Origin: an uncultured beta proteobacterium
Lineage (GTDB): Bacteria; Pseudomonadota; Gammaproteobacteria; Burkholderiales; Burkholderiaceae_C
Direction of reading: 5' to 3'
Assembly: GCA_903909815.1 (NCBI GenBank)
Contig: CAIVXG010000047.1
Coordinates: forward strand, 1 to 64,000
DNA: 64,000 bases
Shown here: piece by piece, positions 15,380-53,523 of the stretch
Layout of the letters: each line of letters begins with the position of its first letter
How positions within the stretch are numbered: the first letter of the stretch is position 1
The notes under the pieces: generated by a model
Databases searched by the model: none
What the model was told of the DNA's origin: nothing
Seen by the model: the letters and a program-made list of their open reading frames with translations, nothing else
Position numbers and translations under genes: made by a program

Positions 15380-16684
15380 ATGCACAACAAATACCCAACC
15401 GAGCCGCTGAAGCTCTGGAAAAAAGCCAAGGAACTGCGCGAGCAGTACTACCTGAACTACGCCAAGGCCAAGGACAACGGCGGCCTGCGCTGGTCAGGCT
15501 CGGCCTGGGCGCTCGACGCCTTGCCTGCGGGGCTGGGGGAAGATGTCTTCTCGCTCACCGGAGAACCCTACGCTGCGGCCATTTCGCACGACCGCAAGTT
15601 CGCCAAGGAATGCATGGATGCGGCCGAATCCTACGGTTTTGCGCGCGACCTGTGCTCCTACATGCGCATTTACTGGGGCGGCATGCACCTGGACAAATAC
15701 CTGTTCGGCGGCAAATTTCCCAAGCCCGACTTTATCTTCCAGACCCAAATCTGTTGCTCGCACTCCAAGTGGTACCAGCACGTCTCAACAGTCGAGCAGG
15801 TGCCCCAGTTTTACGTCGATGTGGGGGTCGGGCCCTACAAGGACATGACCGACGCCCGCCTGGACTACGTGGTCGGACAGCTCAACGAGGGTATCGAATT
15901 TCTGGAGAAATCCACGGGCCGAAAGTTCGACGACGAGCTGTTCATCAAGGCCGTGAAAAACGAAATGCGCTCCACCAGCCGCTGGGCCGACATCTGCGCG
16001 CTGAACAAAGTCAAGCCCGCGCCGCTGGACGAGAAGACCATGTACTCGCTGTACGTGCTGGCGACGCTGTCCAAGTCGTCGCAATGGTGCGCCGACTTCT
16101 ACGACGAGTTGTACGACGAAGTCAAGGACCGGGTCGCGCGCGGCATCGCTGCCGTGCCAAATGAGACCGTGCGCATGATGTCGGACACGCAACCACCCTG
16201 GTCCTTCCTGAAGATCTTTCGCTACCTCGAGACCTTTGGCGCGGTTTCCATAGGCTCGCTCTACACCTTCGCACTCGAAGGCATCTGGGAGACGAAGGAA
16301 GACGGCAGTTGGGGTGGCCGCACCCTGCCCTGGGACAAGGGCATCGCCATGGACGACAGACAAACCGTGCTGCGCCTGTATGCCGACTGGAATCTGTCCA
16401 AGCCCCAATGGCAGCACTTTTACGATCCGCGCCTGAAGACGGAGATGATGTTGCGCATCGTCAAGGAGTGGCAGGTCGACGGCGTCATGCTGCACCTGAA
16501 CCGCGGCTGCGAGGGCCTGTCCATGGGCATCATGGAAAACCGCATGGGCATTGCCAAGGCGGGCGTTCCCATCATGACCTACGAAGGCAACATGGGCGAC
16601 GAGCGCGAGTTCGACGAAGTACGCACACAGGCGCGCGTCGATGCCTTCATGGAGCAGCTGGGCCTCAGGCGCCAGGCTGCCTGA
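15380..16684 (+). CDS. bzdO: Benzoyl-CoA reductase subunit (BcrB/BzdO-like)
   Basis: 434 aa; [46 protein letters not shown]-terminal [19 protein letters not shown]. Confidence 0.93.
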
Positions 16685-16707
16685 CCCCTACCTGCAAGGA
16701 GACAAAG

Positions 16708-17517
16708 ATGATTACCGCTGGCATAGACATGGGTTCACGCACCGTCAAGGTCGTGTTGCTCGAAGAAATCAACGTGGAGGGCGCGCCTCAACTGAAGTAC
16801 AAGTTGAGGAAGGCGCACATCATGATGCCGGGCGACCTCGACCCGGATCAGGCTGCCGAAAAGGTCTACGACGACGCGCTGGCTGCGGTCGGACTGACGC
16901 GCGACCAGATCGCGGCCGTGTTCGCTACCGGCGCTGGGCGAAAACAGGTTGCCTTCTCGACGGAGGGAATCACTGAGATGACCGCCGGCGCCAAAGGCGC
17001 GTCCTACATGTACCCCCTTGCGCGCACCGTGGTCGATGTGGGCGCCGAAGAGGGACGCGGCATGAAGACCGACGCGCAGGGGCGCGCCATCGACTTCGCG
17101 GGCAATGAGAAATGCGCAGCCGGCGCGGGCTCCTTTGCCGAAGCCATGTCGCGCGCACTGCAGATGACGCTGCAGGAATTTGGCGACGCCAGCCTGCTTT
17201 CCGACAAGACCATCCCCATGAACGCCCAGTGCACGGTTTTCGCCGAGTCTGAAGTGGTGTCGCTGATCCACTCGGCCACACCCAAGAACGACATCGCCAA
17301 GGCCGTACTCGACGCCGTGGCCAGCCGGGTCTGCGCCATGGTGCGGCGCGTCGGCATCGAGGGAGAAGTGGTGTTGATCGGCGGCATGGTGCACAACGCC
17401 GGCTTTGTCCAGTCACTAAAGAACGCCATGGGCGTGGACGCGATATCTCTGCCCGACATGCCCGAGTACATCAGCGCGCTGGGCTGCGCACTGATCGCCG
17501 CCGAGCGTCAGCACTGA
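16708..17517 (+). CDS. bzdP: Benzoyl-CoA reductase ATPase-type subunit (BcrD/BzdP-like)
   Basis: ASKHA/BadF fold MITAGIDMGSRTVKVVLL, DVGAEEGRGMK, NEKCAAGAGSFAEAM; P/Q assignment by order. Confidence 0.88.
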   Translation: MITAGIDMGSRTVKVVLLEEINVEGAPQLKYKLRKAHIMMPGDLDPDQAAEKVYDDALAAVGLTRDQIAAVFATGAGRKQVAFSTEGITEMTAGAKGASYMYPLARTVVDVGAEEGRGMKTDAQGRAIDFAGNEKCAAGAGSFAEAMSRALQMTLQEFGDASLLSDKTIPMNAQCTVFAESEVVSLIHSATPKNDIAKAVLDAVASRVCAMVRRVGIEGEVVLIGGMVHNAGFVQSLKNAMGVDAISLPDMPEYISALGCALIAAERQH

Positions 17518-17535
17518 ACGAACAAGGAGCATGAA

Positions 17536-18450
17536 ATGAGTTCAACAAGCGCGCAAGTCATCGCTGAGACCGTCCCAGAGAAGAAGGAATTCTGGCGCTG
17601 GCAGGAAAACGTCTGGATCGATGAAACCAAGGATTGGAAGAGCGCCAAGATCATCACCTGCGGCATCGATGTGGGGTCGGTGTCGTCGCAGGCGGTGCTG
17701 GTCGTGGACGGTGAGCTGTACGGCTTCAACAGCATGCGCACCGGCAACAACTCACCCGATTCAGCGACGAACGCGCTGCAGGGCGTGATGGACAAGTGCG
17801 GCATGAAACTTGAGAACATACGCTATGTCGTGGGCACAGGCTATGGCCGCGTGAATGTGCCGTTTGCGCACAAGGCCATCACCGAGATCGCCTGCCATGC
17901 ACGCGGCGCCAACTACATGGGCGGCAACGGTGTGCGCACCATTCTTGACATGGGTGGCCAGGACTGCAAGGCCATCCACTGCGACGAAAAGGGCAAGGTC
18001 ACCAACTTCCTCATGAACGACAAGTGCGCCGCCGGCACCGGTCGCGGTATGGAGGTGATCGCCGACCTGATGCAGATTCCGATTGCCGAACTGGGCCCGC
18101 GTTCCTTCGATGTTGATGTCGAACCCGAGGCTGTGTCTTCGGTCTGCGTGGTCTTCGCCAAGTCCGAAGCATTGGGCCTGCTCAAGGCCGGCTACACCAA
18201 GAACAAGGTCATCGCCGCGTACTGCCAAGCCATGGCGGAGCGCGTCGTGTCCCTGCTGGAACGCATCGGCGTGGAAGAGGGCTTCTTCATCACGGGCGGC
18301 ATCGCCAAAAATCCGGGTGTGGTGCGGCGCATCGAAAAGCTGCTGGGCATCAAGGCCATGGAGACCAAGGTGGACAGCCAGATCGCCGGCGCTCTGGGTG
18401 CCGCGCTCTTTGGCTACACCCTGATGCAAAAACAGGACAAGGCCGCGTGA
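17536..18450 (+). CDS. bzdQ: Benzoyl-CoA reductase ATPase-type subunit (BcrA/BzdQ-like)
   Basis: ITCGIDVGSVSSQAVLVVDG, LDMGGQDCKAIHCDEKGKV, NDKCAAGTGRGMEVIADLM; P/Q assignment by order. Confidence 0.88.
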   Translation: MSSTSAQVIAETVPEKKEFWRWQENVWIDETKDWKSAKIITCGIDVGSVSSQAVLVVDGELYGFNSMRTGNNSPDSATNALQGVMDKCGMKLENIRYVVGTGYGRVNVPFAHKAITEIACHARGANYMGGNGVRTILDMGGQDCKAIHCDEKGKVTNFLMNDKCAAGTGRGMEVIADLMQIPIAELGPRSFDVDVEPEAVSSVCVVFAKSEALGLLKAGYTKNKVIAAYCQAMAERVVSLLERIGVEEGFFITGGIAKNPGVVRRIEKLLGIKAMETKVDSQIAGALGAALFGYTLMQKQDKAA

Positions 18451-19721: not shown

Positions 19722-20387
19722 ATGTGGATCGATACCCATTGCCATACGAAGTATTCGTACGACAACTGGCTGGAGCCGGTCGACCTGATCCGACGCGCCA
19801 AGGCGCTGGGCATTGACGCCGTGTGCATCACCGAACACTACTCCTTTGAAGCCTCCGAGCCCGTGTTGCAGGTGGGCCGGGATGAGGGTCTGCTGGTGCT
19901 GCGCGGTGTCGAAATCGCCACTGACCGCGGCCATCTTCTGGCCTACGGCGTCGAGGACGATGGGTGGAATATCTGGAACCGCGACAACTACCTGCCGATG
20001 CAGGAAGTCATCACCCGCATCAACGCCCTAGGGGGAATCTGCGTTCCGGCCCATCCTTTTCGCCAGGTCGGGTTGTCCAGTCTGCTCGAAGGCATCCTGG
20101 ATCTGGACGGCATTGCCGCGGTCGAGACGCACAACGGCAACAACAGCGCCGACGACGATCGTCTCGCGCTGCGCGCCGCACAGATCCTGGGTCTGCCCAC
20201 GCTGGGCGGCAGCGACTGCCACAAGACGGCAGCGGTGGGCCGCTGCGCCACGGAGTTCCAAGGCGACATCCGGTGCATGGCCGATTTCATCGCCGCGGTG
20301 CGCGCCGGTGCCTGCCAGGCGCACTATTACCCGGGCTACGGCCCCAGCCCGCAGGCGCGCAGCGCATTGAGCGCGCCTGCGCTCTGA
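19722..20387 (+). CDS. PHP-domain metal-dependent phosphoesterase-like protein (possible BzdU position)
   Basis: WIDTHCHTKYSYDNW, ITEHYSFE, PAHPFR, GGSDCHK metal-binding motifs. Confidence 0.85.
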   Translation: MWIDTHCHTKYSYDNWLEPVDLIRRAKALGIDAVCITEHYSFEASEPVLQVGRDEGLLVLRGVEIATDRGHLLAYGVEDDGWNIWNRDNYLPMQEVITRINALGGICVPAHPFRQVGLSSLLEGILDLDGIAAVETHNGNNSADDDRLALRAAQILGLPTLGGSDCHKTAAVGRCATEFQGDIRCMADFIAAVRAGACQAHYYPGYGPSPQARSALSAPAL

Positions 20388-20407
20388 GCGAATCAGGAGA
20401 AGCAGCG

Positions 20408-22966
20408 ATGCCAGCCCAACAGACTTCAGTCATCACCTGGTGGAAAGCCAGCCGGGCATCGGATGCGCTCGCGTTCGGGGAACCGGTGGAACTCACGATC
20501 GACGGCAAGCGCGTGCAGGCGCTGGCGGGCGCCTCGGTGCTGAACGCCGCCAGCGTGGCCGGGATCTATATCCCCGCGTTGTGCGCCCACCCGGACCTGC
20601 CGCCAGCCCAGCAGCGCGCCTGCGGCGACAAGGGCGATTCCGGCTGCAATCTTTGTCTGATCGAAATCAATGGCACGCCCGGCATGAGCAAGGCCTGTTC
20701 CACCGCCGTGCGCGAAGGCATGACGGTGCGCAGCAACACGCCCCAGATCCAGAAGGCGCGCCAGCAGCATCTGGCCAAGATCCTGGGACCACACCCCCAT
20801 GTCTGTCTGGTTTGCCCGCAACGCGACGGCTGCTCGCGCACCCAATGCTCGTACGGCAATCCGCCCGACACCCGCTGCTGCTCGATCTTTTCCAGCTGCG
20901 AGTTGCGCAAGGTGGCCGACTACGTCGTGATCCCCAACAGCACCCCGCCCTACAAGCCGGCGGGGTTGCCCATCATCACGAACGAGCCTTTTTTTGATCG
21001 GGACTACAACCTGTGCATCGACTGCCGCCGCTGCCTGGTGGCTTGCAACGAGGTGCGTGGCGTCGGTTGCCTGGAAGTCAAGGAGGTCCAGACCGCTCAG
21101 GGAGTGCGTCGCTACGTCGGCACGATTGCGCCCACGCTGATCGAATCCGGCTGCAAATTCTGCCAGGCCTGCGTGGTCGTGTGTCCCACCGGCGCCCTCA
21201 CCGACCGTACGCTGGATCCGGCCCGGCGCGAGCAAAGCATGGTTCCCTGCAAGCAGGCCTGTCCCGCCGGCATCGACGTGCCGCGCTACGTGCAACTGGC
21301 GGCCCAGGGCAAATACGGCGAAGCCATCGCGGTGGTGCGCGAGAAACTGCCCTTCCCCGGCATCGTCGCTCGCGCCTGTTTCGCCATGTGCGAGACCGCC
21401 TGTCGGCGCGGGCAACTCGATGATCCGCTGTCGATCCGATCGCTCAAACGCATCGCCGCCGACAACGACACCGGCCTGTGGCGCGAACACTCGACGCAAC
21501 TGGCGCCAAGCGGACGCCGGGCCGCAGTGATCGGCGCCGGCCCAGCAGGCCTGACCGTTGCCTATTACCTGGCCAAGAAGGGTCACGCCGTGACCGTCTT
21601 TGACGCCCAACCGGCAGCCGGCGGCATGGCCCGCTACGGCATCCCCTCCTACCGCGTACCGGTCAAAGTCATCGACGACGAAATCTCCGAAGTGCAAAAG
21701 CTCGGTGTGGCGTTTCAGTTCAATAGCCGCGTGGAGAGTGCCGATGCGCTGTTTGGGCAGGGCTTCGAGGCGCTGTTCATCGGTATCGGCGCGCAGGGCG
21801 GCGACAAGCTGGGAATTCCCGGCGAGGATCTGCCTGGCGTGGTCGACAGCCCCACCTACCTCAAGGCCGCGACCATGGGCCTGGTGAATACGCCGGCGGG
21901 CATTCAGACCGGAGCCAAGGTGGTGGTCATAGGCGGCGGCAACGTCGCCACCGACAACGCACGCTCGTCCCGGCGTTTTGGCGCCGGGGTGGACATGGTT
22001 TATCGCCGCACGCAGGATGAGATGCCGGCGCGCACCGAGGAAGTCGAGGGCTGTTTGACGGAGGGCGTGAACCTGCGCTTCCTGCTTTCGCCCAAAAGGA
22101 TTGAAGTGGGCAGCGATGGCCAGGGCCTGAACATCACCTACGCCCGCATGGCGCTGGGTGCACCCGATGCATCCAAACGTCGCTCGGCCTTCGACACCGG
22201 TGAAGAGTGCTGTGAGCGGGTGGACCTGGTGATCTCCGCCGTGGGACAGCACCCCCAGCGTTTTGAAGGCTTCGGCGTGCTGACCGATCAAAAGGGTCGC
22301 ATCACGGTGCGCCAGGACTCCATGCTCAGTAGCCGCGCGGGCGTGTATGCGGGAGGCGACTGCGTGCTCGGGCCGTCGACGCTGATCGAGTCCATCGCGC
22401 AGGGCCGCGTCGCCGCAGCCGCCATGGACCGGCAACTCGGTGGCGACGGTGACATCGAGGAAAAACTGCTGCGCGACGGCTGGGAAAGCGACCCCTTCCT
22501 GGGCCGCGACCCGCAATTTAATCGGCAACACAAATTCCACCCGATCATGCTGCAACCGGCGCAACGCGGTGGCTGGGACGAAGTGGAAAAAGGCTTTGAA
22601 GACGCGACAGCGCGCGCCGAAGCCGCGCGCTGTTTCAAATGCAATCTGGCGCCCAAGATCACCGATGCGGTGCTGCCACCCGAGTCGTGGCTGGACTTCG
22701 AGTCCCAAGTGGTGGCGGGCATGAGCACTGAGGCGGGGGTGTTTCAGTTGCTGGACGCGGACAAGAACGTTCTCATGATCAAGGGCGTCGAGAACCTGCA
22801 GCGCGGGCTGCAGGAGCAACTTGGGGGGTCCCACGGCGCGGTGGCGTTCACGTTCGAAGAAGCCGCCATGTACACCTCGCGCGAGTCCCAGATGATCCAG
22901 GCCTATTTGCAGGAGCACGGCAAGATGCCGGGCGGTGGATCGGATGAGCTTGATGACCTGTTTTAA
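20408..22966 (+). CDS. bzdV: BzdV-like multidomain oxidoreductase: 2Fe-2S/4Fe-4S NuoG/FdhA-like N-terminus fused to GltD-like FAD/NAD(P) domain
   Basis: CGDKGDSGCNLCLIEING, CIDCRRCLVACNEVRG, CKFCQACVVVCPTGAL; VIGAGPAGLTVAYYLAKKGHAVTVFDAQ; 852 aa. Confidence 0.88.
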   Translation: MPAQQTSVITWWKASRASDALAFGEPVELTIDGKRVQALAGASVLNAASVAGIYIPALCAHPDLPPAQQRACGDKGDSGCNLCLIEINGTPGMSKACSTAVREGMTVRSNTPQIQKARQQHLAKILGPHPHVCLVCPQRDGCSRTQCSYGNPPDTRCCSIFSSCELRKVADYVVIPNSTPPYKPAGLPIITNEPFFDRDYNLCIDCRRCLVACNEVRGVGCLEVKEVQTAQGVRRYVGTIAPTLIESGCKFCQACVVVCPTGALTDRTLDPARREQSMVPCKQACPAGIDVPRYVQLAAQGKYGEAIAVVREKLPFPGIVARACFAMCETACRRGQLDDPLSIRSLKRIAADNDTGLWREHSTQLAPSGRRAAVIGAGPAGLTVAYYLAKKGHAVTVFDAQPAAGGMARYGIPSYRVPVKVIDDEISEVQKLGVAFQFNSRVESADALFGQGFEALFIGIGAQGGDKLGIPGEDLPGVVDSPTYLKAATMGLVNTPAGIQTGAKVVVIGGGNVATDNARSSRRFGAGVDMVYRRTQDEMPARTEEVEGCLTEGVNLRFLLSPKRIEVGSDGQGLNITYARMALGAPDASKRRSAFDTGEECCERVDLVISAVGQHPQRFEGFGVLTDQKGRITVRQDSMLSSRAGVYAGGDCVLGPSTLIESIAQGRVAAAAMDRQLGGDGDIEEKLLRDGWESDPFLGRDPQFNRQHKFHPIMLQPAQRGGWDEVEKGFEDATARAEAARCFKCNLAPKITDAVLPPESWLDFESQVVAGMSTEAGVFQLLDADKNVLMIKGVENLQRGLQEQLGGSHGAVAFTFEEAAMYTSRESQMIQAYLQEHGKMPGGGSDELDDLF

Positions 22967-22978
22967 GGAAAAAATCCG

Positions 22979-23761
22979 ATGAGCGCAGCGCAAACTTTCG
23001 AATTCATTCGCTACGGTGTCGCCGACGGACTGGCGACACTGACCATCAACCGGCCGCCCTTCAACGTCCTTGACATCCCGACCATGGCCGAGATCAACGA
23101 CGCGCTGGACGCATGCAGCCAGGACGACAGCGTCAAGCTGCTGGTCATCACCGGCGCGGGCGAGAAGGCCTTTTCCGCCGGCGTCGAGGTGGCAGATCAC
23201 ACGCCGGACAAGGTGGACCAGATGATCGAGGTTTTTCACGGTATCTTTCGCCGGCTGCACAAGTTGCCCATGCCTACCGTGGCGTCGGTGAATGGCGCGG
23301 CCCTGGGCGGCGGTATGGAGTTGGCCATCGCCTGCGACATGATCGTGGCCGCGGCCGGCGCCAAATTTGGCCAGCCGGAGATCAAGCTGGCGGTGTTCCC
23401 GCCGATAGCGGCCGTGCTCCTGCCGCGCCTGGTGTCGCCCGCCAGGGCCATGGAGATGCTGCTGGGCGGAGAAAATTTCACGGCCGAGCACGGCCACGCG
23501 CTGGGCCTGGTGAATCGCGTCTTCCCAAGAGAATCCTTCGCCGCCGACGTGCAGGCTTTTTTGGCGCCGTTCCTGAAACTGTCCCGCGTCGCTCTGCTGA
23601 GCACGCGCCGCGCGATCCGCGGCGCCAGCGGCCAGCACTTCGGCGCCGCGCTCGACATCGTGGAAGACATCTACCTCAAGGAACTCATGCTGACCGACGA
23701 CGCAAAAGAGGGTTTGGCGGCGTTCCTGGAAAAGCGCCAGCCGGTCTGGCGCAATTCCTGA
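22979..23761 (+). CDS. bzdW: Cyclohexa-1,5-dienecarbonyl-CoA hydratase (enoyl-CoA hydratase family)
   Basis: Crotonase fold; LATLTINRPPFNVLDIPTMAEINDAL; position after bzdV. Confidence 0.88.
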   Translation: MSAAQTFEFIRYGVADGLATLTINRPPFNVLDIPTMAEINDALDACSQDDSVKLLVITGAGEKAFSAGVEVADHTPDKVDQMIEVFHGIFRRLHKLPMPTVASVNGAALGGGMELAIACDMIVAAAGAKFGQPEIKLAVFPPIAAVLLPRLVSPARAMEMLLGGENFTAEHGHALGLVNRVFPRESFAADVQAFLAPFLKLSRVALLSTRRAIRGASGQHFGAALDIVEDIYLKELMLTDDAKEGLAAFLEKRQPVWRNS

Positions 23762-23791
23762 TTCAAACAAATTTCACACAAAGGAAACCCC

Positions 23792-24871
23792 ATGATTCCG
23801 GAATTCATCGATACCTGGCAAATGTCCGAACCGGGCAAACTGGTCAGGACCCGCATCCCCATGCCGGCGCTGGCCAGCGGCGACGTGGTGGTGCAGATCA
23901 GCGGTTGTGGCGTCTGCCACACCGATCTCTCGTACTTCTACATGGGTGTGCCGACGGTGCAAAAGCCGCCCCTGTCGCTGGGACACGAGATCAGCGGCGT
24001 GGCCATCGGCGGCGAAGCCAGCATGCTGGGCAAGGAAGTCATCATTCCGGCCGTGCTGCCCTGCGGCGAATGCGAACTGTGCCAATCGGGCCGCGGCAAC
24101 CGTTGTCTGGCGCAAAAGATGCCAGGCAACTCCATGGGCATCTACGGCGGCTTCTCCAGCCATATCGTGGTGCAGGCGAAGTTCCTTTGCGTCGTGGGTG
24201 ATCGCAAGGGCATTCCGCTGGAACACCTGTCGGTGATCGCCGATGCCGTGACCACGCCCTACCAGGCCGCAGTGCGCGCCAAGCTCGGTGCGGGTGATCT
24301 GGTGGTGGTGGTCGGTGCGGCTGGCGGTGTCGGCAGCTTCATGGTACAGGTGGCCAAGGCCATGGGCGCCAAAATGATCGTCGGCATCGACGTGAACGCC
24401 GAGAAGCTGAAAAAGATGGAGGGCTTTGGTGCCGACGCCACCATCAACCCGCGGGACTTGAGCAGCAAGGAAGTGAAGGAACAATTCAAGAAAATCGCCA
24501 AGGACGCCGGCGTCTCCGGCAACACCGGCTGGAAGATCTTCGAATGCACGGGCACCAAGCCCGGCCAGGAAACAGCGCTGTCGCTGCTGTCCTTTGTCGG
24601 CATGCTGGTAGTGGTGGGCTATGGCACGGAAGAGACCAGCTACATGCTGTCCAAGCTCATGGCCTTCGACGCCGAAATCATCGGTACCTGGGGCTGCACA
24701 CCCGACAAATACCCGGCGGTGCTGGAAATGTGCCTGGATGGGCGCATCCAGCTCGAGCCCTTTGTCGAGACGCGACCCATGAGCCAGATCGAACAGGTGT
24801 TTGACGAAGCCCATCACGGCAAACTCAGCCGCCGCGTCATTCTCACGCCCGATTTCAATCAACTCAACTAA
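23792..24871 (+). CDS. bzdX: 6-hydroxycyclohex-1-ene-1-carbonyl-CoA dehydrogenase
   Basis: Zn-alcohol dehydrogenase: GCGVCHTDLSYFYMGVPTVQKPPLSLGHEISG, CGECELCQSGRGNRC; position in operon. Confidence 0.9.
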   Translation: MIPEFIDTWQMSEPGKLVRTRIPMPALASGDVVVQISGCGVCHTDLSYFYMGVPTVQKPPLSLGHEISGVAIGGEASMLGKEVIIPAVLPCGECELCQSGRGNRCLAQKMPGNSMGIYGGFSSHIVVQAKFLCVVGDRKGIPLEHLSVIADAVTTPYQAAVRAKLGAGDLVVVVGAAGGVGSFMVQVAKAMGAKMIVGIDVNAEKLKKMEGFGADATINPRDLSSKEVKEQFKKIAKDAGVSGNTGWKIFECTGTKPGQETALSLLSFVGMLVVVGYGTEETSYMLSKLMAFDAEIIGTWGCTPDKYPAVLEMCLDGRIQLEPFVETRPMSQIEQVFDEAHHGKLSRRVILTPDFNQLN

Positions 24872-24889
24872 CTAATCAGGAGCATTTTC

Positions 24890-26020
24890 ATGTCACTCAA
24901 TTGGCTGCGCCGCGACAACGAACTGAAAGACCACGCCCTGTTGGGCGAAGAACATTTCGGCACCGAGGCCCCCTCGGTCATGTATGAACGCCGACCCATC
25001 GTCGATCCCCAAGGCAATACCGTGGAGGGACTTTTTTCCTCCTGGATCATCCTGAACAATCCGGCGCAATACAACTCCTACACCACGGAAATGGTAAAGG
25101 CGGTGATTGCCGGATTCCAGCGTGCGTCCAGCGACCGCGCCATTGTGGCCGTGGTCTTCACGGCGGTGGGCGACAAGGCCTTCTGCACCGGCGGCAATAC
25201 GGCCGAGTACTCGGCCTACTACTCGAAACGGCCGAATGAATACGGCGAGTACATGGACCTGTTCAATGCCATGGTGGACGGCATCCTGAATTGCAAGAAG
25301 CCCGTGATCTGCCGCGTCAACGGCATGCGCGTCGCGGGCGGCCAGGAAATCGGCATGGCCACAGACCTGACCGTCACCTCCGACATGGCCATCTTTGGCC
25401 AGGCCGGACCGAAACACGGCAGCGCGCCCGATGGCGGCTCCACCGATTTCCTGCCGTGGATGCTGAACATGGAAGATGCCATGTACAACTGTGTTTCCTG
25501 CGAGACCTGGAGCGCCTACAAGATGCGCGCCAAGAACCTCGTGACCAAAGTCGTTCCGGTGCTGAAGAAGGACGGCGAGTGGGTGCGCAATCCTCTGGTT
25601 CGCACCGACGCCTACGTGGACGACGGCGAACTGGTGTACGGCGAGGCGGTGGCACCCGACCAGCTGAAGGCGGCGAAGGAATTGATGGCGCAATGCACCA
25701 CCGATTTCAGCCGCCTCGACGCGGCGGTGAACGAACTGATCTGGAAATTCACCAACTTGTTTCCCCATTGCCTGATCAAATCGATCGACGGCATTCGCGG
25801 CAAGAAGAAGTTCTTCTGGGATCAGTTCAAGCTGGCCAATCGTCACTGGCTGGCGGCCAACATGAACCACGAGGCCTGGCTCGGCTTCAACGCCTTTGAC
25901 GCCAAGAAGGCCACCGGACGGGACGTGATCGATTTTGTCAAATACCGCCAGCTGGTGGCGCAAGGTGCGCTGTTCGACGACGCCTTTGCCGAACAGGTTC
26001 TGGCCAAGCCCAAGGCCTGA
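24890..26020 (+). CDS. bzdY: 6-oxocyclohex-1-ene-1-carbonyl-CoA hydrolase
   Basis: 376-aa crotonase-family ring hydrolase; LNWLRRDNELKDHALLGEEHFGTEAPSVMYERRPI; position in operon. Confidence 0.9.
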   Translation: MSLNWLRRDNELKDHALLGEEHFGTEAPSVMYERRPIVDPQGNTVEGLFSSWIILNNPAQYNSYTTEMVKAVIAGFQRASSDRAIVAVVFTAVGDKAFCTGGNTAEYSAYYSKRPNEYGEYMDLFNAMVDGILNCKKPVICRVNGMRVAGGQEIGMATDLTVTSDMAIFGQAGPKHGSAPDGGSTDFLPWMLNMEDAMYNCVSCETWSAYKMRAKNLVTKVVPVLKKDGEWVRNPLVRTDAYVDDGELVYGEAVAPDQLKAAKELMAQCTTDFSRLDAAVNELIWKFTNLFPHCLIKSIDGIRGKKKFFWDQFKLANRHWLAANMNHEAWLGFNAFDAKKATGRDVIDFVKYRQLVAQGALFDDAFAEQVLAKPKA

Positions 26021-26024
26021 CAGC

Positions 26025-26771
26025 ATGCAACTCAAGGACAGGGTGGCGATTGTGACCGGCGCCGGCCAGGGCATCGGCGCTGCTGTGGCCCAAGCCTATG
26101 CCGCCCAAGGCGCCAGGGTGGCCGTGGTCGACATGAACCTCGACGCGGCCAACGCCGTGGCCGAGGGCATCCGTGCGGCCGGCGGGCAGGCCATGGCCGT
26201 GGCCTGCGATGTGGCGCAGCGCGCCCACGTCGACGCCATGGCGGAGCAAGTGACGCAGGCCTGGGGGCGCGTCGACATCCTGGTGAACAACGCCGGCATC
26301 ACGCGCACGGCGATGTTGCACAAGATGACCCTCGAGCAGTGGCAGGCAGTGCTCGCCGTGCACCTGAGCGGAAGCTTCAACTGCCTTCAGGCCGTGGTGG
26401 ACGGCATGATCGAGCGCCGCTATGGCCGCATCATTTTCGTCACTTCCGCCGCGGGTATTCTGGGCACTGTGGGCCAGATCAATTACAGCGTGGCCAAGGC
26501 CGGCATCCTGGGCATGACCAAGAGCTGCGCCAGGGAGTTGGCGCGGCACAACATCACGGCCAACGCCATCGCGCCAGGCGCAGCCACGCCGATGACGGAG
26601 ACGATCCGGACCGACGAACGCTTCAAGGAAAAATACTTGGACCGCATCGCCCTGGGGCGTTGGGCGCAACCTGAAGAAATAACACCGGTCTTTGTCTTCT
26701 TTGCGTCGGACGCTTCCTCCTACGTCACCGGCCAGATCCTCGCTGCCGACGGCGGCATGACGATTCACTAG
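26025..26771 (+). CDS. bzdZ: Short-chain dehydrogenase/reductase (BzdZ-like)
   Basis: TGAGQGIGAAVAQAYAAQGA, NNAGITR, YSVAKAGILGMTKS. Confidence 0.85.
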   Translation: MQLKDRVAIVTGAGQGIGAAVAQAYAAQGARVAVVDMNLDAANAVAEGIRAAGGQAMAVACDVAQRAHVDAMAEQVTQAWGRVDILVNNAGITRTAMLHKMTLEQWQAVLAVHLSGSFNCLQAVVDGMIERRYGRIIFVTSAAGILGTVGQINYSVAKAGILGMTKSCARELARHNITANAIAPGAATPMTETIRTDERFKEKYLDRIALGRWAQPEEITPVFVFFASDASSYVTGQILAADGGMTIH

Positions 26772-26781
26772 GCTTGAGTCG

Positions 26782-27399
26782 ATGGCGCAAATCTATTCCT
26801 ACGACGGCGTCGTTCCGGTCATCGATCCCAGTGCCTTCGTTCATCCGAGCGCCGTAGTCATCGGCGACGTCATCATCGGTGCTGGAGTCTACGTGGCACC
26901 GTGCGCCTGCTTGCGCGGTGACCTGGGGCGCATCGTCATCGGCGCAGGCTCCAACATCCAGGACACGGTAGTGGTGCACGGCTTCCCCAGCACCGATACC
27001 GTGATCGAAGAGAACGGTCACATCGGACACGGGGCCATCATTCATGCCTGCACGCTCAAACGCAATGTGCTGGTGGGGATGAATGCGGTCGTGATGGATT
27101 TCGCCGAGATCGGAGAATCGTCCATTGTTTCGGCCTCTGCCTTCGTCGCAGCCAAGAGCGTGATTCCCCCCAGGAGCCTGGCGATGGGTGTGCCGGCCAA
27201 AGTGGTGCGCAGCCTCACGCCGGAGGAACTGGAATGGAAATTGCAGGCCACGGCCACTTACCAGCAGCTCTGCCTGGATTCAAGGCGCTCCATGGTGCCA
27301 TGCATTCCACTCACCGCGCCCGAGGAAGGACGGCGGCGCTGCAGCGCCACCGACGTGCGGCCACTGTCTGAATTCAAGCTGCAACTCGGCGCAGAATAG
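26782..27399 (+). CDS. Gamma-carbonic-anhydrase-like/PaaY-like hexapeptide-repeat protein
   Basis: Left-handed beta-helix repeats; VHPSAVVIGDVIIGAGVYVAPCACLRGDLGRIVIGAGSNIQDTVVVHGFP. Confidence 0.85.
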   Translation: MAQIYSYDGVVPVIDPSAFVHPSAVVIGDVIIGAGVYVAPCACLRGDLGRIVIGAGSNIQDTVVVHGFPSTDTVIEENGHIGHGAIIHACTLKRNVLVGMNAVVMDFAEIGESSIVSASAFVAAKSVIPPRSLAMGVPAKVVRSLTPEELEWKLQATATYQQLCLDSRRSMVPCIPLTAPEEGRRRCSATDVRPLSEFKLQLGAE

Positions 27400-49822: not shown

Positions 49823-52147
49823 ATGGCCATCAGAGAAAAGCTCGACCGCCTCGTCTTACGCATGCATGACACGCCGCAGTACAACGCGCAAGGGGCCGTG
49901 CTGTTCGTTGATCTGGAACAGCGCACGCTGCTCAGGAAATACCTGCCGCTGGAGGTGCTGCGAAATTTTCTTGGCGGGCGCGGCGCAAACATGTGGCTGC
50001 TCTACAACCTGATGGACGAGGAGCGCGATGCGCTGGACCCGGAGATCCCCTTGATCTTTGGCGCCGGCGTGCTGACCAGCAGCATGCCATCGGCCACGCG
50101 CGGCAACATCACCAGTAAATCGCCCGACAGCTATGCGATTTTGGACGCCAATGCGGGCGACTTCTTCCCGTCGTTTTTGCGTCGCCACGGCTACGAGCAC
50201 ATCGTCCTGTTCGGCCGCTCGGCCTGCTGGACCCTGCTCAAGATCTCCTACGACACGGCCGAATTCATCGACGCCACGCCCTACCTGGGGCTGGACAACC
50301 TGGACATGGCTGCGGCCGTGGCGCGCGACTTCAACTGCGTCGAGCGCGAAGACATGGCGTTGGCGCGCATCACCACCGCGGGCGAGAACCAGGTGCTGTG
50401 TAGCGGCATCATGGGGGGCATCAAGTCGATCTGGGCGCGCGGCGGCGGCGGCGCCAAGATGGGCTCGCTCCGGCTCAAGGCAATCATGATCCACGGCGAG
50501 CCCAATACCCTGGCGCCAGTGCAGCCCATGGCCAAGTACAACCAGCTCATCGGCAAGAAGATCATCGGCACCAGCGTGATCAAGAACGCCCTCAAGATGG
50601 TGGGAACGCCCTTCCTATACAAGCCCAGCCGGGTGCTGTGCGCCCTGGGAACCAAGAACCATCAGGAGTCCAGCTGGACGCCTGCGCTGGACGCCGACAA
50701 TTTCGACCCCTACCGTCCCGGCATGGACGGCTGCTATCGCTGCCCGGTGCATTGCCGAAATCAGAATGACATGACGCCCGGCGCCAAGTCCGGCTGGGGC
50801 GCATCTGCCCTCAAGGGTCTGTCCGGCAACGCCAGCTACGACAAGGACCAGGCTGCCATCGACCACGGCAAGCGGCGCAGCTACAACGGCATTCACGGCG
50901 ACGGCCACTACGACCGCTACGACAAGGGCGACGGACCCGAGTACGTCACGCTGGGCAAGTTCGGCCCGCTGATCGGCATCAAGCAGCCCGAGCAGGTGCT
51001 GCGCCTGAACAACATCCTGAACGATCTGGGACTTGACTCCGCATCCACCGGAAGCGCCATCGCCTGGGCCATGGAGTTGTTCCAGCGCGGCATCATCGGC
51101 CTGCAGGAGACCGGTGGCATGGACCTGAGCTGGGGCAACTACGAGGTCATCGAGAAGCTGCTGTTCATGACCGCGCGCCGCGAAGGCTTCGGCGACACCA
51201 TTGCCGACTCGGCGCGCGCGGTGGAGCGGGGCAAGTACCCGGTGGTCGCACTGGACTATCGCATGACGGTCAAGGGCCTGTTCCAGTCCGATCCGCACGA
51301 TGCACGCATCCTCAAGGCCTTCGCCCTGGGGCTGTCGGTGGCCACACGCGGCATGGATCACCTGCGCAACCGTGTCACTTTGGAGATCAACGCCCGCATC
51401 AATGACGATCCGGTTTTCAAGGCGTCCTTGTACGGCGGAAGCGTGTCTGCAGCACCGAACAGCTACGAGGGCAAGGAATTTGCGGTGCGCAAGTGCGAAA
51501 ACACCTACGCGGTGGGCGACTCGGTGGGCATGTGCCGTTTCAACACCAAGCTGTTCAACTCCCCCACGTTGCCCGACCTCAAGGATTTCGCCACGCAAAT
51601 CAGCGCGCTCACGGGGCAGGCCTTCACCGAGGCCGAGCTCGACGAAATCGGGCGCAACGTCACCGGTGTGGAGCGCATGCTGAACTTCCGTTTTGGACTG
51701 CGCTCCAAGGACGACACGCTGCCAAGGCGCTGGTTTGAAGAGGCCTTGACCGAAGGCCCCTTTGCCGGCGAGAAGATCGACCGCGCCGAATTCGATGCCA
51801 TGAAGAAGCGCTTCTACAGCCTGAGCGGCTTGAACACGGAGGGCACGCCGGCCGTGGCCTGGCACGAGAAGCTGTCGCTGCTGATCACCGGCTTCGCCGT
51901 GCGGGTCAGCTTGCCCCAGCCGCTGGCCGGCGCGCCCGAGCAGGTGGTGGTCATCGATGAAGTGATTAGCGACGTGAGCGCACTGCGCCATGCCCTACTG
52001 CGCAAGCTGCCCGAGGCCGCGGACGATCTCAACGACAGCAGTTGGAACGTTGCCGTGAATGGCACGATGGTGCTGTCGGGAGAAGCATCCACGCCGATTT
52101 TCAGCGGGGATCTGCTGGTGCTGGTGCCCATCATCGCGGGCGGATGA
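49823..52147 (+). CDS. Aldehyde:ferredoxin oxidoreductase (AOR family, W/Mo-bis-pyranopterin) with C-terminal MoaD/ThiS-like domain
   Basis: YNAQGAVLFVDLEQRTLLRKYLPLEVLRNFLGGRGANMWLLYNL, GCYRCPVHCRNQ cysteine region, ending VNGTMVLSGEASTPIFSGDLLVLVPIIAGG; 774 aa. Confidence 0.88.
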   Translation: MAIREKLDRLVLRMHDTPQYNAQGAVLFVDLEQRTLLRKYLPLEVLRNFLGGRGANMWLLYNLMDEERDALDPEIPLIFGAGVLTSSMPSATRGNITSKSPDSYAILDANAGDFFPSFLRRHGYEHIVLFGRSACWTLLKISYDTAEFIDATPYLGLDNLDMAAAVARDFNCVEREDMALARITTAGENQVLCSGIMGGIKSIWARGGGGAKMGSLRLKAIMIHGEPNTLAPVQPMAKYNQLIGKKIIGTSVIKNALKMVGTPFLYKPSRVLCALGTKNHQESSWTPALDADNFDPYRPGMDGCYRCPVHCRNQNDMTPGAKSGWGASALKGLSGNASYDKDQAAIDHGKRRSYNGIHGDGHYDRYDKGDGPEYVTLGKFGPLIGIKQPEQVLRLNNILNDLGLDSASTGSAIAWAMELFQRGIIGLQETGGMDLSWGNYEVIEKLLFMTARREGFGDTIADSARAVERGKYPVVALDYRMTVKGLFQSDPHDARILKAFALGLSVATRGMDHLRNRVTLEINARINDDPVFKASLYGGSVSAAPNSYEGKEFAVRKCENTYAVGDSVGMCRFNTKLFNSPTLPDLKDFATQISALTGQAFTEAELDEIGRNVTGVERMLNFRFGLRSKDDTLPRRWFEEALTEGPFAGEKIDRAEFDAMKKRFYSLSGLNTEGTPAVAWHEKLSLLITGFAVRVSLPQPLAGAPEQVVVIDEVISDVSALRHALLRKLPEAADDLNDSSWNVAVNGTMVLSGEASTPIFSGDLLVLVPIIAGG

Positions 52148-52215: not shown

Positions 52216-53523
52216 ATGAGCTATTTCGACGAAGCCACCGAGACCATGGCGCGCGAGCCCCTCGCCGAACTGCAACTGCACAAGCTGCAACGAATGCTGG
52301 CCCACCTGTGGCAAAGGAATCGCTTCTACACCGCCAAATGGCAGGCTGCCGGCGTGCAGCCGTCCGACATCCGCTGCCTGGCCGATCTATCCCTGTTGCC
52401 ACTGACGCGAAAGAGCGAGTTGCTGCAAGACCAGGCCCGGTACGCGCCGTTCGGCAGCAACCTGACCTACGCGCCCGAAGCCTATGTGCGTATGCACCAG
52501 ACCTCGGGCACCACGGGCCTGCCCTTGAAGGTGTTCGACACGCACGAGTCCTGGGACTGGTGGGGGCGCTGCTGGGGCCATGTTCTGACCGGCGCCGGAG
52601 TCAGGCCCTCGGACCGGCTCTTCATGGCCTTCGGCTTTGGTCCGTTCATCGGCTTCTGGGCCGCAGTCGAAGGTGCGAGAAAGCTCGGCGCCCTGATGAT
52701 TCCGGGGGGCGGTCGCGACACGCAGCAACGCCTGGAGATGATGCGCGACGCGGGTGCCACGGTGCTGTGTTGCACGCCCTCGTATGCGCTGCGCATGGCC
52801 GAGGTGGCGCAGGAGATCGGCTTCGACCTGCGCTCCATCCCGCTGCAGACCACGGTCCATGCGGGCGAACCGGGGGCCAGCGTCGCGGCCACCAAACAAC
52901 GCATCGAGAACACCTGGGCCGCCAAGTGTTTCGACCACGCCGGCGCCTCCGAGGTGGGCGCCCATTCCTTTGAATGCCAGGCCCAACCGGGCGGCACGCA
53001 CCTGATCGAGAGCGAATACATCGCGGAAATCCTCGACCCGCTGAGCGGCGCGCCGGTGTTGCCGGGCGAGCGCGGCGAACTGGTGATCACCAACCTGGGG
53101 CGCTGGGGTTTCCCGGTGCTGCGCTATTGCACTGGCGACCTGGTGCAGACGAATCTGCAGCGCTGCGCCTGCGGTCGGACTTCGCTGCGCTTTGAAGGCG
53201 GCGTGCTCGGGCGCGCCGACGACATGGTGACGGTGCGCGGCGTGAACGTGTTCCCGGCCGGCGTGGAAAACATCATCCGCAGTTTCACCGAGGTGGACGA
53301 GTTTCGCGTCACGGTAAGCAAGACCCGGCAGATGGACGAAATGGATATCGAAGTCGAACTGTGCGCCGGCACTGACACCGCCTTGATTCAAACCATCGGC
53401 ACCCGGCTCGACAGCATGCTGGCCTTTCGCCCGCGCGTGCGCCTGGTACCCCACGGCGCGCTGCCGCGCTTTGAAATGAAGGCCAAGCGCTTTCACGTCA
53501 AGTTGGAGACGGCCGGGTGCTGA
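52216..53523 (+). CDS. Phenylacetate-CoA-ligase-family protein
   Basis: HQTSGTTGLPLKVFDTHESWDWWGRCWGHVL, FDHAGASEVGAHSFEC, GRADDMVTVRGVNVFPAGVENIIRSF. Confidence 0.85.
   Translation: MSYFDEATETMAREPLAELQLHKLQRMLAHLWQRNRFYTAKWQAAGVQPSDIRCLADLSLLPLTRKSELLQDQARYAPFGSNLTYAPEAYVRMHQTSGTTGLPLKVFDTHESWDWWGRCWGHVLTGAGVRPSDRLFMAFGFGPFIGFWAAVEGARKLGALMIPGGGRDTQQRLEMMRDAGATVLCCTPSYALRMAEVAQEIGFDLRSIPLQTTVHAGEPGASVAATKQRIENTWAAKCFDHAGASEVGAHSFECQAQPGGTHLIESEYIAEILDPLSGAPVLPGERGELVITNLGRWGFPVLRYCTGDLVQTNLQRCACGRTSLRFEGGVLGRADDMVTVRGVNVFPAGVENIIRSFTEVDEFRVTVSKTRQMDEMDIEVELCAGTDTALIQTIGTRLDSMLAFRPRVRLVPHGALPRFEMKAKRFHVKLETAGC

Follow-up and report, generated by a model that had tools for sequence, protein, structure and literature searches.

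A C-terminal fusion of MoaD to an aldehyde ferredoxin oxidoreductase (AOR) was described for Azoarcus by Iyer, Burroughs and Aravind in 2006, and MoaD encoded adjacent to AOR was proposed to serve the synthesis of the W cofactor (PMC1779556). The gene analyzed in our study is located in a stretch of 64,000 nucleotides from contig CAIVXG010000047.1 of an uncultured beta proteobacterium, hereafter called the window. Judged by its published description, the Azoarcus AOR-MoaD protein resembles the product of the window gene in its domain order and in the suggested link to the W cofactor (PMC1779556). The architecture is already known from that report and the window gene is a further case of it; the earlier note on this locus had therefore overstated its novelty. 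However, the Azoarcus report comprises one organism in a table and a figure, whereas we describe a clade that extends over five bacterial groups, namely Betaproteobacteria, Gammaproteobacteria, Thermodesulfobacteriota, Myxococcota and Planctomycetota, together with a split form in Acidobacteriota.

Similar associations have been reported for carriers that are not fused. WorX is a ThiS-like protein encoded next to WOR genes, which was described in 2026 and for which a role in the biosynthesis of the pterin was predicted (PMC13328260). Like the window gene, WorX as well as AorD/AorE of Aromatoleum aromaticum (PMC6365974) tie a MoaD/ThiS-like unit to an AOR-family gene, and a function in cofactor maturation has been proposed. 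WorX and AorD/AorE, however, are free proteins from a separate gene and did not form part of the enzyme purified from A. aromaticum, whereas the carrier of the window is covalently part of the enzyme. Our locus thus shares with WorX/AorD the genetic tie to a WOR gene, while a separate polypeptide occurs only in the Acidobacteria. A WOR-ThiS fusion is not mentioned in the main text of the 2026 WOR classification (PMC13328260). The A. aromaticum enzyme itself (AORAa, AorABC, 8c0z) shares the large-subunit AOR fold with the window protein (Foldseek E 2.8e-38). Nevertheless, AORAa consists of three subunits and has Glu at the position of Glu313, whereas the window gene has no adjoining AorA or AorC gene and its clade has Val at this position.

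Ubiquitin-like carriers within larger polypeptides have been described as well. MoaX of Mycobacterium tuberculosis, which belongs to the cofactor pathway, likewise contains MoaD as one part of a larger polypeptide (PMC4326299), but there MoaD is N-terminal with an internal Gly-Gly and cleavage is required, whereas the MoaD unit of the window protein is C-terminal and its Gly-Gly is free. The sulfite reductase with a C-terminal ThiS-like domain of some actinobacteria also is a redox enzyme ending in such a carrier, although the enzyme is a different one and its context is sulfur metabolism (PMC1779556).

Our analysis adds how far the fused clade extends and that it apparently arose once. Further additions are its invariant tail, a translationally coupled split form, an atypical active site, and the comparison with a second AOR operon that the genome also contains. 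These results bear on how AOR-family enzymes gain their bis-pterin cofactor and why MoaD/ThiS-like genes adjoin theirs. A conserved covalent carrier with split relatives offers a clean handle on the role of the carrier in cofactor assembly, and the clade marks an atypical AOR-type active site with a probable tie to anaerobic aromatic degradation.

Architecture and predicted fold of the fused protein

The 774-aa frame was found intact in the window from its ATG at 49823 to its TGA at 52147 (+), with the AOR-family body spanning residues 25-686 and the MoaD-like domain residues ~690-774 up to the final Gly-Gly (Table 1). In four relatives (L039, L019, L020 and L021) the homologous open frame starts exactly at the position of residue 1, which supports the start at ATG 49823. 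By its domain content and predicted fold the window ORF is an AOR/WOR-family large subunit, in which AFOR_N, AFOR_C and the AOR fold are present. According to the alignment, the insertion of about 41 aa is found in the proteobacterial fused forms and is missing in the Planctomycetota and Acidobacteria homologs. It adjoins the Fe-S cysteines and is among the lowest-confidence parts of the AOR body in the AlphaFold model.

Table 1. Coordinates of the fused gene, its domains and its downstream neighbour in the window
Feature	Residues	Position	Strand	Basis
Fused gene, AOR/WOR-family large subunit with C-terminal MoaD-like domain, 774 aa		49823..52147	+	Uninterrupted frame; 52 full-length fused homologs
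AFOR_N, pterin-binding beta domains	25-225	49895..50497	+	Pfam PF02730 6.1e-44; Foldseek 1aor, 9mqx, 8c0z
AFOR_C domains	244-686	50552..51880	+	Pfam PF01314 4.6e-88; alignment to 1AOR
Insertion of ~41 aa	~323-363	50789..50911	+	Alignment; pLDDT 68-69 in residues 331-350
MoaD/ThiS-like beta-grasp, terminal Gly773-Gly774	690-774	51890..52144	+	Pfam ThiS; AlphaFold; Foldseek
PaaK-like AMP-forming CoA ligase, immediately downstream		52216..53523	+	NCBIfam PaaK-type matches below equivalog cut-offs

With the whole protein as query, the Pfam ThiS profile matched residues 715-774 at 2.3e-5, which is above its curated cut-off, and ThiS was the sole Pfam match of the last 82 aa alone (4.4e-7). The MoaD equivalog model TIGR01682, whose cut-off is 66.15, reached 14.8 bits with the whole protein and 20.7 bits with the C-terminal domain alone, and other canonical-MoaD models likewise scored far under their cut-offs. 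Therefore, we regard the C-terminal domain as a MoaD-like relative and not as a canonical MoaD.

The AlphaFold model of the whole protein, built from an alignment of 37 rows, had a mean pLDDT of 91.4 and a pTM of 0.93. It predicts C-terminal strands at residues 693-696, 708-711, 741-745, 748-750 and 764-769 and helices at 718-728 and 730-736, an order that corresponds to a beta-grasp; this part has a pLDDT of 86-93, and the four-residue tail is predicted to be flexible (pLDDT 48). In a Foldseek search of the PDB the whole model matched first the AOR structures 1aor, 9mqx, 9g7j and 8c0z (TM ~0.9 on the target) and after these the MoaD chains of molybdopterin synthase. When the domain was folded alone, its best matches were MoaD (1nvi_D, 6jbz_B and 1fm0_D), followed by SAMP1 and CysO. 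The predicted domain thus has the MoaD fold (1fm0_D, TM 0.75-0.79; 1nvi_D, TM 0.74-0.78) and also the C-terminal Gly-Gly of MoaD proteins. One of our profile searches was biased by the inclusion of canonical MoaD rows, and the independent evidence comes from the profile of fused domains, from Pfam and from Foldseek. Profile matches, the AlphaFold model and its Foldseek matches consistently characterise the last domain as a MoaD-like beta-grasp. The earlier note had described an AOR body followed by a MoaD-like domain with a terminal Gly-Gly; Pfam, AlphaFold and Foldseek concur with this description, and its own reservation that the C-terminus might contain no beta-grasp fell away with the AlphaFold model.

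Spread of the fusion and the split form in Acidobacteria

A homolog scan with one genome per species yielded 60 loci. Body and MoaD domain were joined in one frame in 52 complete ORFs from 45 other loci; together with the window protein this gives 53 fused sequences. The hosts are mostly Betaproteobacteria (Rhodocyclales, Sulfuritalea, Polaromonas and Aromatoleum diolicum) and further comprise Gammaproteobacteria, Geopsychrobacter (Thermodesulfobacteriota), Myxococcota and Planctomycetota. Aromatoleum diolicum 22Lin is an isolate. The family is nevertheless rare: of 300 genomes examined from the order 3 contained it, and of 399 from the phylum a single one, with the window's own genome included in each count.

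The terminal residues are conserved throughout. Gly-Gly was present at the aligned end of all 52 homologs, being terminal in 51 and followed by TDGA in the planctomycetal L058, and Gly773-Gly774 are hence invariant in the fused sequences (53/53). At the junction T689, G690 and F691 are conserved among the fused sequences. The MoaD-like domain as a whole is about twice as variable as the AOR body, with a mean column entropy of 1.32 vs 0.58 bits. Judged by sequence comparison it is under purifying selection; its dN/dS was 0.06-0.20 in eight close pairs. Besides the TDGA in L058 (8318-8537), a longer tail past Gly-Gly was observed in the split copy of L060 (~1470-1755). Because of the residues beyond Gly-Gly, both MoaD units would need trimming or be inactive. 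The L058 genome encodes a Prok-JAB protein.

In the tree of the AOR body, the 50 fused rows are set apart by a single branch (support of only 94/33). The fused state appears as a single label change in 94% of the bootstrap trees, with the split forms outside. Eight loci of the Sulfuritalea type (L013, L015, L018, L019, L020, L028, L031 and L045) contain a second AOR-MoaD fusion 4-8 kb downstream of the first, which in L019 is cut by the contig end. The second copy is ~73% identical to the window protein, compared to 84% for the first, and the two are placed on different branches.

A different arrangement was found in the Acidobacteria. In all eight loci of this group the AOR frame ends near residue 688 and is followed by a separate MoaD ORF, and in five of them (L049, L051, L053, L054 and L060) stop and start codon overlap as ATGA. 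Such an overlap is a usual sign of translational coupling. A test profile built solely from fused domains matched seven of the split MoaD ORFs with values between 8e-19 and 2e-21. For the split copy of L052, which is truncated by the contig end, the value was 5.5e-4, and for the canonical MoaD of the window genome 8e-4 only. Coupling of carrier and enzyme, either by fusion or by an adjacent gene, was seen in every relative of the subfamily for which we had a complete sequence to examine. The simplest history is that two coupled genes fused once. Less probably, a later fission in the Acidobacteria may have occurred, as the fork that joins split and fused forms is without resolution in the tree.

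Active site of the AOR body and gene neighbourhood

The ligand positions of the [4Fe-4S] cluster (C304, C307, C311 and C571, a CxxCxxxC motif with a distal Cys) are kept in all 53 fused sequences. Alignment to 1AOR showed that T262 and H513, which correspond to Thr243 and His448 of the Pyrococcus AOR (PfAOR), are also retained. At the position of the catalytic Glu313, however, the window protein has V375, with Val in 52 and Ile in one of the fused sequences, and at the position of Tyr427 it has H492, with His in 53 of 53. The alignment has no gaps in the Glu313 column, next to which GPEY is found, whereas the Tyr427 column is less certain because of a one-residue gap beside it. Glu was found at the Glu313 position in the solved AOR, FOR, WOR5 and A. 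aromaticum sequences compared. The set of Thr243, Glu313, Tyr427 and His448 is typical of aldehyde-oxidising members (PMC13328260), and two of these four residues are replaced across the fused clade. Therefore, "aldehyde" oxidoreductase is to be read as a family label and not as a shown activity, and the name aldehyde:ferredoxin oxidoreductase in the earlier note claimed too much in this respect.

The genes around the fused gene suggest a link to aromatic metabolism. Among the 47 relatives whose sequence extends far enough, 22 have a PaaK-like homolog of more than 55% identity after the AOR-MoaD gene. In the window, a four-gene 2-oxoacid oxidoreductase (gamma, a GltD-ferredoxin fusion, alpha and beta) and then PaaK itself are located further downstream, and on the upstream side there are a TRAP transporter and a divergently oriented regulator of the IclR/PcaR type. 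An assignment of this 2-oxoacid oxidoreductase as PadEGI (phenylglyoxylate dehydrogenase) was rejected, as the scores were far under the equivalog cut-offs. The window also contains genes of the benzoyl-CoA pathway type at 16-27 kb (16309-18450 and 19964-27399), including two ATPases of the BcrA/D family (benzoyl-CoA reductase type), a GltD-like flavoprotein of 1000 aa that has Fe-S domains, and enzymes of the enoyl-CoA hydratase and dehydrogenase families. Among the distant relatives, the fused gene of L046 and L047 stands beside dch/oah/had homologs and a BzdR-like regulator with HTH and shikimate-kinase parts.

In 25 of 41 relatives a two-gene 2-oxoacid:acceptor oxidoreductase is encoded upstream, and in 19 of 41 a small ferredoxin gene is located directly upstream of the fused gene. 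In L012 (5542-8969) this block consists of a 2-oxoacid:acceptor oxidoreductase (gamma-alpha fusion and beta), a rubrerythrin-like protein, a small ferredoxin and AOR-MoaD, and its order is repeated in about 20 other loci. The window and its two nearest relatives (L008 and L009) are without a block of this type upstream and have a different 2-oxoacid oxidoreductase downstream. In line with the earlier note, which had seen no AorA- or AorC-type gene nearby, none was found among the annotated neighbours in the window and almost none in the relatives (of the 41 longer ones, one had an AorA-like and two an AorC-like gene). The adjacent genes for a small Fe-S and an FAD subunit that define Class III WOR (AorABC) are thus missing here. 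For the electron transfer, the small upstream ferredoxin of many relatives is a more natural carrier than the GltD fusion suggested before. It is reasonable to infer a role in anaerobic aromatic metabolism, with a ferredoxin as electron partner and the CoA ligase acting on the product.

Cofactor assembly and the proposed role of the attached carrier

The partners of a sulfur carrier are encoded elsewhere in the genome. The window genome has a canonical moaD-moaE-moeA group (L069; C14) and one MoeB (C142). Among the genomes of the relatives, 24 of 28 had MoaE, and all 15 that were tested for a ThiF/MoeB-type E1 had one. MoaE gave no match in the draft assemblies G007, G010, G015 and G024 (the genomes of L024, L032, L041 and L057), possibly due to draft incompleteness or to another pterin route. 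Neither moeB nor moaE nor moeA adjoins the fused gene in the 41 longer relatives, and no Rfam match to a Moco/W riboswitch reached the gathering score in the window. Free ThiS/MoaD-family proteins were present in 28 of 28 genomes checked, and a genome with the fused domain as its sole ThiS/MoaD protein, which would have served as a natural test of complementation, did not occur among them (0/28). The tethered carrier may therefore be dispensable or feed a general pool.

We favour the reading that an AOR-family oxidoreductase bears its own sulfur carrier for cofactor assembly as a permanent C-terminal domain, to which we assign a probability of about 0.6. It was described that MoeB adenylates the C-terminal glycine of MoaD, which is converted to a thiocarboxylate and delivers sulfur to cPMP in MoaE, with both glycines being essential (PMC4326299). 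In the fused protein, MoeB would adenylate Gly774 in trans and a sulfurtransferase would convert the adenylate to a thiocarboxylate; the GG tail would enter the active site of MoaE and donate sulfur to cPMP, and molybdopterin would be made beside an apo-enzyme requiring two copies of it. The fusion would thereby ensure a 1:1 ratio and a local supply for the role that free WorX/AorD play with other AOR-family enzymes. Ubiquitin-like proteins (Ubls) were shown to be required for the activities of W enzymes in Thermococcus kodakarensis in some media (PMC11323500). A tethered sulfur donor had been one of two possibilities in the earlier note, and with MoeB and MoaE available in trans and free WorX/AorD beside other AOR-family genes it emerged as the best-supported one. 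A more far-reaching version, which we regard as tentative and rather doubtful, is a self-maturing enzyme whose attached thiocarboxylated GG makes molybdopterin in cis for the same polypeptide, and whose body, lacking Glu313 and having His for Tyr427, has some other catalytic function in anaerobic benzoyl-CoA metabolism than the simple oxidation of aldehydes.

Several other explanations have to be weighed against a carrier that serves its own enzyme. The domain could be an active sulfur carrier without such preference and act as an extra MoaD for the general molybdopterin pool. MoeB and MoaE are common to the canonical pathway, and the Ubls of T. kodakarensis show partial redundancy (PMC11323500); however, a canonical moaD next to moaE and moeA is already present in the genome, and the carrier is tied to one enzyme in every complete subfamily relative examined, which makes this explanation rather unlikely. 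The second possibility of the earlier note, a post-translational cut that releases an ordinary free MoaD, has a precedent in the MoaD-MoaE protein MoaX, which must be cut after Gly82 (PMC4326299), and the Acidobacteria do produce the AOR and MoaD parts separately. Yet MoaX needs cutting because its GG is internal, whereas the Gly-Gly of the window protein is already C-terminal and proteolysis is unnecessary. Moreover, the last AOR helix (678-689) nearly meets the first MoaD strand (693-696) at a pLDDT of 93-96 with no long disordered linker predicted, and we saw no evident motif for cleavage between them despite the conserved residues of the junction. As nothing was found that indicates such processing, we consider it unlikely.

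Loss of sulfur carriage in favour of a structural function, for example as a docking surface for ferredoxin or in oligomerisation, would agree with the faster evolution of the MoaD-like domain compared to the enzyme body and with the frequent reuse of beta-grasp domains for binding. However, both terminal glycines are invariant, the tail matches that of MoaD, and its predicted flexibility is expected of a carrier, so that a purely structural domain appears quite improbable. It is very improbable that the GG serves to conjugate the enzyme to other proteins in the manner of ubiquitin, although the isolated domain also resembles SAMP1 in Foldseek and MoaD-family Ubls of archaea are conjugated to proteins (PMC11323500). 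The structural similarity to MoaD of molybdopterin synthase is closer, and in the window the fused gene is not adjoined by any gene for a conjugation factor. Further, we know of no precedent for the attachment of an 84-kDa enzyme as a tag. The earlier note had itself raised the concern of a sequencing frameshift or assembly error joining neighbouring genes, for which the two overlapping genes of the Acidobacteria relatives might be quoted; with 52 more fused ORFs in 45 loci, including that of the isolate Aromatoleum diolicum 22Lin, an artefact is ruled out for practical purposes.

Next to the fused gene with its presumed permanent carrier, the window genome contains a second AOR locus on contig 14 (L068, 5292-9548), which encodes AorA-like, AorB-like and AorC-like proteins and a free MoaD-like protein ending in PPIAGG. 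The same cell thus has a free AOR-linked carrier as well as a tethered one, and this conventional aor operon provides a natural control within one genome to which the fused version can be compared.
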